From Porphyromonas circumdentaria (GTDB lineage Bacteria > Bacteroidota > Bacteroidia > Bacteroidales > Porphyromonadaceae): a stretch of DNA of 51,734 nt. Positions 32,147 through 37,856 of this stretch are shown here, one piece after another. The stretch spans positions 1 through 51,734 of the forward strand of contig NZ_FUXE01000017.1 in the NCBI RefSeq assembly GCF_900167105.1, in the 5' to 3' direction. The number at the start of each line of letters is the position of its first letter. The first letter of the stretch is position 1. The notes under the pieces are model-generated. The model was given only the letters and a program-made list of their open reading frames with translations. It did not search any database and had not been told where the DNA came from. Position numbers and translations under genes: made by a program.

Positions 32147-33163
32147 ATGAAAGCAAACCAACATAACCTCCGCCCTTTAGTATCCCTATTGATACCAGTC
32201 TATGGCGTAGAACTCTATATAGAGGAGTGTTTGCGCTCTGTGCTGCAGCAAGAGTATACCCCTCTGGAGGTTATTTTGGTAGATGATTGTTCGCCCGATA
32301 ATAGCATCTCTTTGGCAGAAGAGTTGATTGCTCAAGAGAATAGATACAATCACACCTTCCGCATCTTACATCATGCAAAGAACATGGGCATAGCAGGAGC
32401 CAGAATTACGGCTATAAAAGAGGCGCAGGGCGAACTATTACTTTTCTTGGATAGTGACGACTATTTTCTATCTCCTGAGGCAATAAAAAGAGCCGTGGAG
32501 TGTATGCAACACGAGCAAGCCGATATTGTAATTTTCAACTATACGGAGCTTTTTAAGCGAAGTCAAAGGCGAAGCTCTTTGCCCCTAATATATGATTCTA
32601 AGGAACTTACCTCTGCCCTTTTAGAGGGAGTTACACCCGCTTACTTCTGGAACAAGGTCTTCCGTCGCTCCCTCTTCTTGGAAAAAGCCAATTTATTACA
32701 GTTAGGCAATAATATGTGGGAGGATCTTCAGTGCGTAGTGCCTTATAGTTTGGAAGTGCAACGAGTAGCCTACATAGAGGAAAACTTGGTCGCTTATCGG
32801 CGTACCAACGAACGATCGGTTACCTTAGATCTCTCCCACAAGAATGTAACTTCGATGAAAAAGGTGCTTAACTTCTTGGAAAACCTTTTTGTTGAGCGAT
32901 TGGGAGAGGAGCAAGCACACTCCTTTCAAAAGAGTTTTGCCACAGCTTATCTCCACATCGACATAGGAGTACTCTGCCATGCTTCCTACAAAAACTTTGG
33001 CGCGATACTGCATAACAACCCTACTCTTCATACCCACATACAACAAATGCCCAAACTAAGTGGGCATTTCCTGCGGGCTGCGCTCTTTTTTCATAAGCTA
33101 CACCTAACGCCTCTTGCCTACCTTATAGTACGTATCAAAGAGTTTTTACAAAAAAGGCGATAG
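32147..33163 (+). CDS. Glycosyltransferase family 2 (cluster copy 3)
   Basis: A near duplicate of the gene at 29977-30981: LVSLLIPVYGVELYIEECLR, VILVDDCSPDNSISLAEEL, GELLLFLDSDDYF, NKVFRRSLFLEKANLLQLGN, NMWEDLQCVVPYSLEVQRVA and RRTNERSVTLDLS. The N-terminal half is most conserved and the C-terminal third has diverged, which fits duplication followed by change in acceptor recognition. Last plus-strand gene of the cluster; the terminator at its end is shared with the convergent GT2. Confidence 0.9.
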   Translation: MKANQHNLRPLVSLLIPVYGVELYIEECLRSVLQQEYTPLEVILVDDCSPDNSISLAEELIAQENRYNHTFRILHHAKNMGIAGARITAIKEAQGELLLFLDSDDYFLSPEAIKRAVECMQHEQADIVIFNYTELFKRSQRRSSLPLIYDSKELTSALLEGVTPAYFWNKVFRRSLFLEKANLLQLGNNMWEDLQCVVPYSLEVQRVAYIEENLVAYRRTNERSVTLDLSHKNVTSMKKVLNFLENLFVERLGEEQAHSFQKSFATAYLHIDIGVLCHASYKNFGAILHNNPTLHTHIQQMPKLSGHFLRAALFFHKLHLTPLAYLIVRIKEFLQKRR

Positions 33164-34262: not shown

Positions 34263-34270
34263 TAAGTTTG
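34263..34270 (+). promoter_or_regulatory. Possible -7 box before the Crp/Fnr gene
   Basis: TAAGTTTG fits TAnnTTTG but ends 5 bases before the preferred ATG, so it would give a leaderless transcript. Weak evidence. Confidence 0.3.
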
Positions 34271-34275
34271 CTACC

Positions 34276-34899
34276 ATGAAGCAGATAGAAGAGATTTCGG
34301 AGTTTCGTTCCTCTCCCGAACTTGTAGAGAAACTCTACAAATATGGTATTGCCAAGACCTACAAGGCGGGCAGCATTATCCTCAACGAGAATGCCCATAT
34401 TCGTTTCATTCCCATCGTTATAAAAGGGGTGATGAAAGTTATTCGCACCGAAGAGGATGGGCGAGAAATTTTGCTCTACTACATAAAGGCAGGAGAGAGT
34501 TGTATCATGTCTTTTTTGGGTGGATTGCACAACGAAACGAGCAAGGTAAGAGTAGAAATAGAAGATGATGCAGAGATTCTTTTCCTCCCCGTCGATAAGG
34601 CCTCTCTATTTATGAAGGAGCATCCCGAGTGGGTCAACTATATTTTTCGATCTTACCACAAGAGGTTTGAAGAATTACTCGAAACCATCAACGCCATCGC
34701 TTTTAAGAAAATGGACGAACGCTTATTAGCACTCATTCATAAGAAAGCCGAACTCATCGGGAGCCACACAATCCCCATAACGCACGAACAGCTTGCCAGC
34801 GAATTAGGAACGGCAAGAGCTGTCGTGTCAAGACTGTTAAAACAACTCGAAGAAGCAGGCGTTGTGCTTTTAGGTCGTAATAAAATCACCCTTATGTAA
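34276..34899 (+). CDS. Crp/Fnr family transcription regulator of the sulfur module
   Basis: Sensor-regulator with an N-terminal cyclic-nucleotide-binding-like barrel (YKAGSIILNENAHIRFIPIVIKGVMKVIR and GREILLYYIKAGESCIMSF) and a C-terminal winged helix with recognition region ITHEQLASELGTARAVVSRLLKQLEEAG. No Fnr-type four-Cys iron-sulfur motif is present; the single Cys in GESCIMSF is the only visible candidate for direct thiol or persulfide sensing. The start ATG 34276 is preferred over ATG 34219, whose extra 19 residues look non-coding. Two operator-like sites follow, the first overlapping this gene's own stop codon, so I infer it activates tauE and the MBL gene. Confidence 0.87.
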   Translation: MKQIEEISEFRSSPELVEKLYKYGIAKTYKAGSIILNENAHIRFIPIVIKGVMKVIRTEEDGREILLYYIKAGESCIMSFLGGLHNETSKVRVEIEDDAEILFLPVDKASLFMKEHPEWVNYIFRSYHKRFEELLETINAIAFKKMDERLLALIHKKAELIGSHTIPITHEQLASELGTARAVVSRLLKQLEEAGVVLLGRNKITLM

Positions 34900-34939
34900 C
34901 CAAAGTAACAGTACGAAGCTCTATATATAACGACCTTTG
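34895..34939 (+). promoter_or_regulatory. Crp/Fnr-like operator and promoter of the TauE gene
   Basis: TGTAACCAAAGTAACA (34895-34910) is an imperfect dyad of TGTAAC and GTTACA with a 4-base gap. The GACCTTTG box at 34932-34939 departs from TAnnTTTG at its first base and has no -33 box. The operator sits where the -33 region should be, centred about 43 bases before the likely start of transcription, as expected for an activator touching polymerase. The same arrangement recurs at 35778-35822. Confidence 0.65.
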
Positions 34940-34964
34940 CTCTGTCGTTTGATTTAGAGACCTT

Positions 34965-35768
34965 ATGTATATACTTGGTTATTTAGCATCTATTTTAATA
35001 GGTTTATCCCTTGGAATTATTGGTGGGGGCGGAAGCATTCTCACCGTTCCTGTGCTTGTGTATCTACTCGGTGTAGACCCTGTATTGGGTACAGCCTATT
35101 CTCTTTTTATCGTAGGTATAACAAGTGCAGTAGGAAGTGTCTCTTATTTTCGCAATTCTTCGGTAGATATACGTACAGCGATACTCTTCGGAATCCCTTC
35201 TATCGTCGCTGTTTTTCTTACTCGAGCCTATTTGATACCCGCTATCCCCACGACGATTGCGCGCGTAGGTAGCTTTGTAATCGACAGGAATGTGCTTTTG
35301 ATGCTCCTTTTTGCCGTACTCATGCTTCTTGCCTCTATCAGTATGATTCGGCCTACCAAGGAGGGAGAAGGGCGGAAACTCGAAGCGAAAACTCAAAAAC
35401 CGACGCCCTACCTTCTAATTCTCCTCGAAGGAATGGTCGTGGGTACTCTGACAGGCTTGGTGGGAGCTGGAGGAGGCTTTTTGATCATCCCTGCCCTTAT
35501 CCTCTTTGGTGGTCTACCTATGAAAAAGGCCATTGGTACCTCCCTCGTAATCATCTCCGCTAAATCTCTATTGGGTTTTCTGGGCGAAAAAAATCTTGCA
35601 AGTCTCGATTGGCAATTACTTCTAATGGTTACAGCTTTTGCTATCATCGGCATCCTCGCAGGCACACGGTTTGCCCGTTATATCAATGGAGAAAAGCTCA
35701 AACCTGCCTTTGGGTGGTTTGTTCTTTTGATGGGTTTGTACATTATACTGAAAGAGACTATTCTGTAA
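34965..35768 (+). CDS. TauE/SafE family permease (sulfite / organosulfur exporter)
   Basis: Inner membrane transporter of the TauE/SafE (DUF81) family, associated with export or uptake of sulfite, sulfonates or related sulfur anions. Two repeated halves are visible: GYLASILIGLSLGIIGGGGSILTVPVLVYLLG near the start and LLEGMVVGTLTGLVGAGGGFLIIPALILFGG at ~145-176, each with the characteristic G-G-G-G/S or G-A-G-G-G turn. About eight membrane segments in 267 residues is usual. Placement before a persulfide-type MBL/rhodanese and a rhodanese supports transport of a sulfur compound rather than another anion. Confidence 0.88.
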   Translation: MYILGYLASILIGLSLGIIGGGGSILTVPVLVYLLGVDPVLGTAYSLFIVGITSAVGSVSYFRNSSVDIRTAILFGIPSIVAVFLTRAYLIPAIPTTIARVGSFVIDRNVLLMLLFAVLMLLASISMIRPTKEGEGRKLEAKTQKPTPYLLILLEGMVVGTLTGLVGAGGGFLIIPALILFGGLPMKKAIGTSLVIISAKSLLGFLGEKNLASLDWQLLLMVTAFAIIGILAGTRFARYINGEKLKPAFGWFVLLMGLYIILKETIL

Positions 35769-35777
35769 AAACGCTTA

Positions 35778-35822
35778 TGTAACAAAAGTAGCTGTACAGG
35801 AATAAAAATAGAACCATCTTTG
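35778..35822 (+). promoter_or_regulatory. Crp/Fnr-like operator and promoter of the MBL-rhodanese gene
   Basis: TGTAACAAAAGTAGCT (35778-35793), followed by GTAC, lines up with the tauE operator: both read TTATGTAAC-n-AAAGTA-n-C-n-GTAC. The -7-like CATCTTTG is at 35815-35822, exactly the same distance from the operator (21 bases between) as in the tauE promoter. The right half-site is weaker here. Confidence 0.65.
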
Positions 35823-35841
35823 TGTTGTAAATAAAACAACA

Positions 35842-37272
35842 ATGCTTTCAGTAGTTATGAAGATAGAACAGATTTATACTGGTTGCCTTGCTCAAGGCGC
35901 ATATTATATCGTTTCAAAAGGAGAGGCTGCAATAATTGATCCCTTGCGTGAGATTGCTCCCTATATGGAGCGACTCAAACGAGATGGCGTAAAGCTCAAG
36001 TACATCTTGGAGACCCATTTCCATGCCGATTTTGTCAGTGGGCACCTCGATTTAAGTCGTGCAACAGGCGCAAAAATCCTCTATGGTCCCACCGCAAAGC
36101 CTGAGTTCGATGCTATCGTTGCGGAGGACAACCAAGTCTTTGAATTGGGAGAAATCAAAATAAAAGTACTTCATACCCCAGGGCACACCTTAGAGAGCTC
36201 TTGCTTTCTGCTGATTGATGAGCAGGGCAAAGAGAGTGCCCTTTTCAGTGGCGATACTCTTTTCTTGGGCGATGTAGGGCGTCCCGACTTGGCACAAAAG
36301 GCGGCAAACATGACGCAAGAGGAGCTTGCAGGTCTCCTCTACGACAGCCTTTACAACAAGATACTCCCGCTCTCTGACGATATTGTCGTATATCCTGCTC
36401 ACGGAGCTGGCTCTGCGTGCGGTAAGAATATGATGCAAGAGACCGTAGATAGCTTGGGCAATCAAAAGCGTGTCAACTATGCTCTTAACCAACCTAATAA
36501 GGAAGCTTTCATTGCCTCCGTAACAGAGGGTCTACTCCCTCCTCCTGGTTATTTTGGCGGTAATGTGGCAATGAATAAACAGGGTTATGATAGTTTTGAA
36601 AACGTTCTCGAGAGAGGCTTATCTGCTCTATCGGCAGACGACTTTGAGGCTATGGTTGCCAGCTCGGGAGCTCTTATCTTGGATACAAGAGCCGCAGGTG
36701 TTTTTGCACAAGGCTTCATACCTCGCTCCATTAACATCGGTCTTGAAGGCGACTTTGCACCTTGGGTTGGGGCTATGGTAGTAGACGTTAAACAGCCTCT
36801 ACTTCTTGTAGCAGAGCCAGGGAAAGAGGAAGATGCCATTACTCGCTTAAGTCGTGTAGGCTTCGATAACGTATTGGGCTACCTAAAGGGGGGCTTCGAT
36901 ACATGGAAAGTTTCGGGCAAAGAGGTAGACCAAGTAGAGCGTATATCGGCAGAGAAACTGGCAGAACTATTCCTACTTAAGGATAGTATCATAATAGACG
37001 TACGTAAGGAGGGCGAATATGCCTCTGAGCACGTAGAAGATGCCTATAGCCGTCCGTTGGCTTACATCAATGACTGGATACAGGATATACCTAACGATCG
37101 GCACTTCTATCTACACTGCGCGGGCGGATATCGTAGTATGATTGCAGCAAGTATTCTCCTTGCAAGAGGTTATCGCAACTTTACAGATGTTGAAGGAGGC
37201 TTTGGAAGCATCGCCCAAACCAATATCCCAAAAACCGATTTTGTATGTCAAAGCAAAGTATCAAAAAAGTAA
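35842..37272 (+). CDS. Metallo-beta-lactamase / double rhodanese fusion (persulfide dioxygenase-like)
   Basis: The N-terminal MBL domain (~6-235) has the metal motif THFHADFVSGH, the later His in HTPGHTLESS, Asp in FSGDTLF and His in YPAHGAG, typical of ETHE1-type persulfide dioxygenases that oxidise glutathione or protein persulfide to sulfite. The first rhodanese domain (~265-350) lacks the active-site Cys (VAEPGKEEDA at the loop) and is probably structural. The second (~370-465) keeps FYLHCAGGYRSM with the catalytic Cys. Start ATG 35842 or 35857 (MKIEQIYTG, closer to the fold). The 3' end overlaps the next gene by 28 bases. Oxygen-dependent activity in an anaerobe is unproven, and a thiol-hydrolase role is the alternative. 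Confidence 0.87.
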   Translation: MLSVVMKIEQIYTGCLAQGAYYIVSKGEAAIIDPLREIAPYMERLKRDGVKLKYILETHFHADFVSGHLDLSRATGAKILYGPTAKPEFDAIVAEDNQVFELGEIKIKVLHTPGHTLESSCFLLIDEQGKESALFSGDTLFLGDVGRPDLAQKAANMTQEELAGLLYDSLYNKILPLSDDIVVYPAHGAGSACGKNMMQETVDSLGNQKRVNYALNQPNKEAFIASVTEGLLPPPGYFGGNVAMNKQGYDSFENVLERGLSALSADDFEAMVASSGALILDTRAAGVFAQGFIPRSINIGLEGDFAPWVGAMVVDVKQPLLLVAEPGKEEDAITRLSRVGFDNVLGYLKGGFDTWKVSGKEVDQVERISAEKLAELFLLKDSIIIDVRKEGEYASEHVEDAYSRPLAYINDWIQDIPNDRHFYLHCAGGYRSMIAASILLARGYRNFTDVEGGFGSIAQTNIPKTDFVCQSKVSKK

Positions 37273-37625
37273 CACTATTCTCGGTATCTATAATTATTGT
37301 ATTTGTTATGTTCGGATTATTCAAAAATCTATTTTCTCAAACCGACGATAAAGCTCTCGCAGAAGCGATTCGTGAAGGAGCTTTCTTGGTAGATGTACGC
37401 ACGCCTGGAGAGTTTGCTTCGGGGAGCGTTAAGGGAGCTGTAAACATCCCTTTGGACAGAATTGAGAGCCGCTTGGGCGAGTTCAAAGAGAAGAAAACCA
37501 TCATTGTATTCTGCCGCAGCGGAGGTAGAAGTAGTCAAGCGAAGAGTATCCTCGAGCGCAATGGTTTCACGAATGTACTCAATGGAGGTACTTGGGAACA
37601 TGTAGCCTCTCTCAAAAACGAGTAA
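37245..37625 (+). CDS. Single-domain rhodanese with N-terminal membrane anchor
   Basis: Sulfurtransferase of 126 residues. Residues ~9-28 (TLFSVSIIIVFVMFGLFKNL) form one hydrophobic segment, after which the rhodanese domain should face the periplasm. The domain has FLVDVRTPGEFASGSVKGAVNIPLD and the active loop FCRSGGRSSQAKSIL with catalytic Cys. It overlaps the MBL-rhodanese gene by 28 bases, implying coupling and probably shared substrate. It is followed by a strong terminator, so the module ends here. Confidence 0.9.
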   Translation: MSKQSIKKVTLFSVSIIIVFVMFGLFKNLFSQTDDKALAEAIREGAFLVDVRTPGEFASGSVKGAVNIPLDRIESRLGEFKEKKTIIVFCRSGGRSSQAKSILERNGFTNVLNGGTWEHVASLKNE

Positions 37626-37661
37626 CACCTCTAAAGAACTATCTCGTTTCAACTAAATACC

Positions 37662-37699
37662 AACCGTCATTGGATAGCATATCTAATGGCGGTTTTTTT
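37662..37699 (+). terminator. Intrinsic terminator of the sulfur module
   Basis: A 15-bp stem with two mismatches (37662-37676 with 37680-37694) is followed by T7 (37693-37699), 37 bases after the rhodanese stop. Confidence 0.88.
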
Positions 37700-37761: not shown

Positions 37762-37856
37762 AAAAGTTTGCACAGGAGGGAACTAAAGTTTAGATATATG
37801 GAAACTCGAGTTGGGATATGTGCAAACTTAAGTTTCCATATATCCCAACTTTTGGG
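37762..37856. repeat. 22-bp tandem repeat, family B, locus 3
   Basis: Four to five units of ~22 bases with cores AACTAAAGTTT, AAACTCGAGTT and AAACTTAAGTTT. It contains a perfect 13-bp inverted repeat, ATATATGGAAACT (37794-37806) with its complement (37831-37843), and a second one around GTTGGGATAT / ATATCCCAAC. The unit direction therefore partly inverts within the array. Confidence 0.75.

Follow-up and report, generated by a model that had tools for sequence, protein, structure and literature searches.

A one-cysteine Crp/Fnr-family regulator and its likely regulon of persulfide and sulfite genes in Porphyromonas circumdentaria and related bacteria

The plus strand of Porphyromonas circumdentaria contig NZ_FUXE01000017.1, analysed here as a window of 51,734 nucleotides (nt), carries at positions 34263-37699 four genes that a preliminary description of this DNA had put forward as a candidate sulfur regulon controlled by a Crp/Fnr protein. 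Pfam searches agree with the gene content given there. The first gene (34276..34899) encodes a Crp/Fnr-family regulator of 207 amino acids (aa), with HTH_Crp_2 and cNMP_binding domains and with 3DV8 as its top match in the Protein Data Bank; the codon of its only cysteine, Cys76, lies at 34501..34503. It is followed by a TauE/SafE-family permease of 267 aa (34965..35768; PF01925, E=5e-46), by a CstB-like persulfide dioxygenase-rhodanese fusion of 476 aa (35842..37272), in which Pfam and structure alignment place a metallo-beta-lactamase domain ahead of two rhodanese stretches, and by a small rhodanese (37245..37625; Pfam) with an N-terminal hydrophobic segment and the active-site loop CRSGGR, which holds Cys90. 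The fusion gene probably starts at the ATG at 35857, as matches from nine related loci (L002-L010) start at query residues 2-6.

Two putative operators accompany these genes, and both were found exactly as previously described. Operator 1, TGTAACCAAAGTAACA, at 34895..34910, includes the stop codon of the regulator, while operator 2, TGTAACAAAAGTAGCT, at 35778..35793, is entirely non-coding. Each is separated by 21 bases from a -7-type box on its 3' side: GACCTTTG at 34932..34939 for tauE and CATCTTTG at 35815..35822 for the second promoter. The likeness of the two operators over 23 bases, also claimed earlier, amounts to 20 of 23 identical positions; no other place in the window matches the first 23-mer at more than 17, and the best scores in 20 copies of the window made with a first-order Markov model were 15-17. 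Promoters of the Bacteroides fragilis type are described as having TAnnTTTG at -7 and TTTG near -33 (PMC7366714). Compared with that consensus, both boxes depart at their first base and TTTG is absent near -33, where the right half of the operator sits, again in line with the preliminary description.

Comparison of ten Porphyromonas/Tannerella loci (the window and L002-L010; conservation given as mean pairwise identity) showed that the gene order regulator-TauE-dioxygenase-rhodanese is preserved in all nine relatives. The operators are 90% (first promoter) and 93% (second) identical and the -7 boxes 95% and 96%, while the gap between them keeps its first four bases (90%) and is variable over bases 5-21 (39% and 46%). 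Invariant columns number 13 of 16 in operator 2 and seven of eight in the tauE box, and the first base of the -7 box is other than T in all 20 promoters of the ten loci. The preliminary description had named a lack of conservation at orthologous loci as the outcome that would speak against it; the operators proved to be conserved. In the window alone, with just two sites of which one overlaps coding sequence, there would be room for chance similarity, or for shared descent of non-functional intergenic DNA. Overlap with the last codons of the regulator is nevertheless insufficient to explain the conservation of the tauE operator, as the non-coding operator 2 is equally conserved, and conserved where its flanks are not.

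Among 26 genomes of the genus, which showed the same association, nine have the regulator at an identity of at least 72%, and those nine and one more, G008, have a CstB-like gene. The exact composite site, comprising operator, gap and box, was found in eight of the nine regulator-bearing genomes and in none of the 17 others, and the ninth, G005, has both sites, each one position off the pattern. In G008, where the nearest regulator is just 35% identical, TGTAACCTATGTTACC, 21 bases and TAGCTTTG precede the CstB-like gene. Another genome, G011 (L102), encodes the regulator at 56% identity and has neither a CstB-type gene nor a composite site. The closest named relative at the locus is P. gingivicanis, whose regulator is 91% identical; its dioxygenase gene (L002:6490-8180, and also in G006) was matched in two pieces with internal stops, and the same loci have about 190 extra bases between tauE and the second operator, with both operators intact.

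Within the P. circumdentaria genome itself (2.03 Mb, 98% complete), operators 1 and 2 are the only exact matches to the core pattern. Allowing up to three mismatches gave 59 matches, compared with 54 for the reversed-pattern control, and the weaker matches therefore look like noise. A broad regulon in this genome is thus unsupported; the one single-mismatch site (C25:169662) has no TTTG in the slot.

More diverged relatives were examined at 32 loci (L011-L042), where regulator homologues are 54-77% identical, using a scoring matrix derived from the 20 sites found at the ten loci and a stretch from -30 to +400 relative to the regulator end. At a cut-off of 8 bits, chosen after a whole-locus scan of the same loci, an operator was found in 20 of the 32, at 18 of them with TTTG in the same slot. 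None of 32 control stretches, which start either 1.5 kb ahead of the regulator or at the end of the contig (those of L029 and L033 overlap the regulator gene), exceeded 8 bits. A weak site followed by TTTG in the slot can still be seen at four loci under the cut-off (L024, L037, L038 and L042). In the whole-locus scan, the top hit lay 3' of the regulator and beat all ten Markov copies in 13 of the 32 loci, and lay ahead of the regulator in L035 and L036. While the window operators are imperfect dyads, symmetric at 5/8 and 3/8 positions, the full dyad TGTGACAATAGTCACA is present in L017, L023 and L025. The stop codon of the regulator falls inside the operator in all ten Porphyromonas/Tannerella loci, the window included, and in 11 diverged loci (L011, L013, L014, L018-L020, L022, L024, L037, L038 and L042; seven above 8 bits). 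Since TGTAAC supplies TAA and TGTGAC supplies TGA, the freedom between A and G at operator position 4 preserves the stop either way.

When 395 genomes, an even sample of a larger group from a class which we take to be Bacteroidia, were scanned for the composite pattern, 43 sites appeared in 36 genomes and none with the reversed control. The preliminary description had called for a scan of this kind for co-occurrence with the regulator, and co-occurrence was found: the regulator (E<=1e-45; 88 of the 395 genomes) is encoded by 25 of the 36 site-bearing genomes and by 63 of the 359 others (Fisher p=2e-10). Ten of the other 11 site-bearing genomes have a more distant member of the regulator family (E<=1e-25), bringing the total to 35 of 36. 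The pattern was formed after the sites in L001-L081 had been viewed, and five of the 36 genomes (8 of the 43 sites) are shared with that set; without them, 35 sites in 31 genomes are left, 20 of which have the regulator (p=6e-8). Most sites in the 25 regulator genomes (26 of 32) lie within 5 kb of the regulator gene. Over 21 gap lengths, 43 of 57 distinct operator-TTTG pairs have this one and 14 are spread over the other 20 combined. This variable-gap scan returned 59 matches, 42 of them at this gap with the 43rd (G207) reported at a shorter one; three are inner TTTGs of the same operators, the other gaps have at most four matches each, and the reversed control has six. Chance similarity, which the class-wide scan contradicts, is rejected on the own-genome, class, gap-length, diverged-locus and footprint comparisons, and we give it, like descent of non-functional DNA, next to no credence.

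The genes behind the operators are mostly sulfur genes. Surroundings could be read for 30 of the 43 class-scan sites, and the first open reading frame (ORF) encodes a metallo-beta-lactamase/rhodanese protein at 12, DUF6132 at five, TauE at three, a YgaP-type membrane segment at three and DUF302 at two, with one site each for a pyridine-nucleotide oxidoreductase with a rhodanese domain, OsmC, a sulfate permease, DUF2202 and a product matching no Pfam family. At 26 of the 30 sites (23 of 27 once the pattern-forming genomes are set aside) a recognised sulfur family is represented by the first or second ORF; the remaining sites are those of L116, L121, L122 and L130. A comparison of up to four ORFs per side at loci L013-L042 (29 usable downstream and 27 upstream; 80 loci fetched) showed that, on the downstream side of the diverged regulators, 26 of 113 ORFs have rhodanese domains. 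Among the 102 upstream ORFs rhodanese is not one of the families listed, and so occurs at most twice, and no sulfur family is among the 25 listed of 106 upstream families. The small protein DUF6132, whose sequence has a GCxSGTC-like motif, lies directly behind the operator in L116, L120, L136, L138 and L139 and precedes a rhodanese in four of these five loci; it may be an uncharacterised sulfur-handling protein. Operator and gap also occur at L026:5702, L027:1800 and L028:1234 (Bacteroides luti and two metagenome-assembled genomes), with TACATTTG or TACCTTTG in the slot.

The promoter geometry suggests how the regulator might act. Class II CRP activators bind operators centred at about -41 from the start, and if transcription begins a few bases past the -7 box, the operators described here would be centred at about -41 as well, over the place of the -33 element. 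A conserved weak -7 box at a fixed gap is what promoters have whose activator touches the polymerase, and the arrangement has the dyad-type operator (imperfect in the window), the fixed distance and the replaced upstream promoter element of class II Crp-type promoters. Those of Escherichia coli resemble it in this position and in the CRP-like dyad TGTGAC-N4-GTCACA of L017, L023 and L025. They differ in that the promoters here would be read by a Bacteroidota sigma factor with a TAnnTTTG box (PMC7366714). CstR and BigR have been described as repressors, and by analogy the regulator could instead block the polymerase and leave once modified. At the same time, the placement near -41, the altered first base in 20 of 20 promoters and the missing -33 element fit activation, and an exact gap is what contact with the polymerase would require, so that we find repression distinctly improbable. 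That the regulator acts as an activator is, from this geometry, likely.

As to the identity of the regulator, both of its domains score over the Pfam cut-off, placing it in the Crp/Fnr superfamily. It lacks the cysteine set of an iron-sulfur (Fe-S) protein, as had been pointed out: a single cysteine at position 76 of 207 aa stands against the four cluster cysteines of the FNR subfamily. Its genome yielded no other PF00027 (cNMP-binding) protein and no other match to the regulator, which leaves fewer candidates for binding the sites. In length (207 aa) and in Cys76, Met78 and His85 the regulator is the same as PgRsp of P. gingivalis, with which it shares the protein family and the template 3DV8, and we treat it as the PgRsp counterpart. 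It is neither CrpPg (2GAU) nor HcpR (9DAY/6NP6), as neither is among its 34 structure sequences at E<=0.001, and the family profile reaches 9DAY just weakly (E=1.9e-6). G005 encodes three PF00027 proteins, which would fit P. gingivalis, the species that this genome presumably represents; two of them match 2GAU (CrpPg, E=3e-152) and 9DAY (HcpR, E=4e-144; also 5V30/6NP6), so that the remaining one is the PgRsp counterpart.

The candidate sensor residue is Cys76. It is a cysteine in 80 of the 80 homologues covering the column and, in a 56-row alignment, the only cysteine among 23 invariant columns; 3DV8, the closest solved relative, has a cysteine aligned with it, and members at about 39-46% identity often have two extra cysteines a few residues further on. 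Conservation of this residue, together with gene content, is what suggests a sulfane-sulfur signal acting through Cys76, a proposal which we regard as evenly balanced.

The main rival to that proposal keeps the same regulon and makes the protein a haem-based redox or gas sensor, with sulfur genes as one redox output and Cys76 as a structural residue or haem neighbour. Cys76-x-Met78 falls close to where CooA has its haem ligand pair Cys75/His77, Met78 is kept in 78 of 80 homologues, and the family profile weakly reaches the CooA structures 2fmy, 2hkx and 1ft9 (E 5.5e-8 to 7.1e-7). PgRsp has moreover been published as a haem-binding redox regulator with redox-dependent spectra; the main text of that paper does not contain rhodanese, sulfur, sulfide, persulfide, tauE, beta-lactamase or palindrom- (PMC6955866). 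On the other hand, the same paper reports that single replacements of Cys76, Met78 or His85 leave the haem spectra unchanged and that added haem does not change DNA mobility, His85 is poorly kept (His in 37 of 80 homologues), and across many genomes sulfur functions recur among the neighbouring and target genes, the gene families listed there including none for haem. We therefore think a haem-based sensor unlikely, if still worth weighing.

A further alternative, that there is no small-molecule signal at all and that an always binding-competent regulator sets expression through its amount, as proposed for CrpPg, seems to us improbable. CrpPg binds DNA with cyclic nucleotides having no effect, PgRsp shifts promoter fragments whether or not haem is added, and pgrsp mRNA is reported to peak in mid-exponential phase under haem/iron excess and to rise in iron/haem-depleted medium (PMC6955866), whereas another account has PgRsp expression independent of growth phase (PMC12040651). 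Such a regulator would not be expected to keep its single cysteine unchanged at the ligand-pocket loop.

The fusion protein has the domain order of CstB, namely a metallo-beta-lactamase, a rhodanese without cysteine and a rhodanese with Cys426; its residues 6-457 align with 3R2U (E=2.1e-53) and residues 6-455 with 3TP9 (E=1.8e-66), Cys426 being aligned, and there is no cysteine between 193 and 426. It contains HFHAD, HTPGH and SGDT, which we take to be the metal-ligand motifs of persulfide dioxygenase, an enzyme that depends on iron and oxidises persulfides to sulfite or thiosulfate. As read from their sequences, the enzymes of the locus are those of persulfide clearance. The cst operon of Staphylococcus aureus (CstR, TauE, CstA, CstB and the sulfide:quinone reductase SQR) likewise joins TauE to a persulfide dioxygenase-rhodanese of the CstB type and to another sulfurtransferase, all of them locally controlled, and its tauE counterpart is reported to rise with cstB when CstR is deleted. 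The controllers differ: CstR of S. aureus is a dithiol repressor, whereas the controller here is a Crp/Fnr protein whose site is probably that of an activator. Pfam searches of the four genes and seven flanking ORFs found neither a CsoR-like repressor of the CstR type nor a sulfide:quinone reductase, which the cst operon includes. BigR, SqrR, YgaV and FisR also control rhodanese and persulfide dioxygenase genes locally in other bacteria, and they belong to families unrelated to the Crp/Fnr regulator, the first three being ArsR-type proteins and FisR a sigma-54 activator. We file the locus as a defence locus of the cst kind that has a Crp/Fnr protein as its controller.

Several observations weigh against this picture. 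Twelve of the 32 diverged loci fall below 8 bits, so the operator is not in every relative, and L040 and L041, above the cut-off, have no TTTG in the slot; L011, the eleventh locus aligned, has the first operator and not the second. In 19 of 32 loci the whole-locus scan placed no Markov-beating top hit 3' of the regulator, and in L025 and L037 it placed such a hit elsewhere. At the class level, 63 of the 88 regulator genomes (E<=1e-45) have no exact composite site, so many members of the family use variant sites or other targets. The genes behind the operator in L026-L028 are not sulfur genes, those of L026 being efflux genes of the OEP, HlyD and AcrB families. The regulator has one cysteine per subunit, unlike the dithiol sensor CstR, and persulfide dioxygenation requires oxygen, which is odd for anaerobes. 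Finally, gel shifts are reported in which PgRsp binds the hmu, bcp and own promoters (PMC6955866), while in G005 only the two local sites match within one mismatch and the remainder stay at control level; either those shifts involve other sequences or our site model is incomplete.

Taken with these points, the claim that operator, gap, regulator and sulfur genes form a regulon is one that we hold, on sequence comparison, with high confidence. The preliminary reading is thus borne out for the regulon itself, for its two operators, placed in the same activator-like geometry ahead of persulfide/sulfite genes, and for its tie to the Crp/Fnr protein, while activation is still inferred. On the operator, gap and associations, which come from comparison, we would build a mechanism of inferred steps (direct binding, activation, the ligand and the role of Cys76). 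The regulator would be made from its own, operator-free promoter, and its dimer would bind sites of the type TGTRAC-N4-GTNRC that lie 21 bases ahead of a weak TAnnTTTG-type -7 box. A sulfane-sulfur species, such as a persulfide or polysulfide, would act on Cys76 at the edge of the ligand-pocket loop and turn the regulator on; the bound protein would cover the place of the missing -33 element and, in the manner of class II activation, touch RNA polymerase from about -41. This would switch on tauE, for export of sulfite or thiosulfate, and the dioxygenase-rhodanese and rhodanese genes, whose products would pass on and oxidise persulfides. A cst-type sulfide/persulfide defence unit, with a Crp/Fnr activator near -41 and a sulfane-sulfur signal at Cys76, is the explanation that best covers the whole and seems to us reasonably probable.

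The remaining features of the locus lie around these genes. The regulator's own promoter has the -7-type box TAAGTTTG at 34263..34270, 5 bases ahead of the ATG, and no operator match was found there. With the box so close to the start, the regulator mRNA is probably leaderless or nearly so; the distance from the end of TAnnTTTG to the regulator start is 5-8 bases in all nine relatives (L002-L010) and 4 bases in two of five diverged loci, and 5' leaders below 10 nt are reported for about 3.7% of cases in B. thetaiotaomicron (PMC7366714). An intrinsic-terminator-like hairpin with a T run at 37662..37694 has the longest stem (15 pairs) among such sites, of which 5 were found in 4 kb as against 3.7 expected from shuffles. 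Past it, at 37785-37852, two interleaved inverted repeats (28-nt arms, 86%; 21-nt arms, 90%) could form alternative hairpins. The flanking genes encode, on one side, glycosyltransferases and an EpsG-type protein and, on the other, a uracil-DNA glycosylase, a class I tRNA synthetase (E and Q type), a VTT-domain protein and a LysR-type regulator; ORFs were called mechanically, so that some small genes may be mis-called, and the flanking ORF at 32147-33163 was judged by eye.

The preliminary description had also suggested an unrecorded response unit. This does not hold for the parts, the regulator being the PgRsp counterpart and the enzymes cst-like, but it may for their connection: in the open-licence literature searched we found no description of the operator, its fixed geometry, the class-wide tie to the regulator family or the sulfur targets, nor of the link between regulator family, operator and sulfur genes. 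Nor did we find there a sulfane-sulfur regulator described for these bacteria, which is of some interest since sulfide is abundant in gum pockets and in the gut. Tentatively, and with slightly less assurance than for the Cys76 signal itself, we propose that members of the PgRsp family act throughout the class as one-cysteine Crp/Fnr activators of persulfide/sulfite homeostasis, in which sensing of sulfane sulfur by the invariant Cys76 replaces a nucleotide, haem or Fe-S ligand. A family with a defined operator, a fixed geometry and one candidate sensor residue makes this question readily testable. The redox regulator PgRsp gains a likely primary target set, target predictions are gained in many genomes, and the poorly known DUF6132 and DUF302 families enter a sulfur regulon. 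If the proposal is true, these bacteria would have found a separate evolutionary answer to the problem solved elsewhere by CstR, SqrR/BigR and FisR, and the published role of PgRsp in virulence would follow from sulfur homeostasis.

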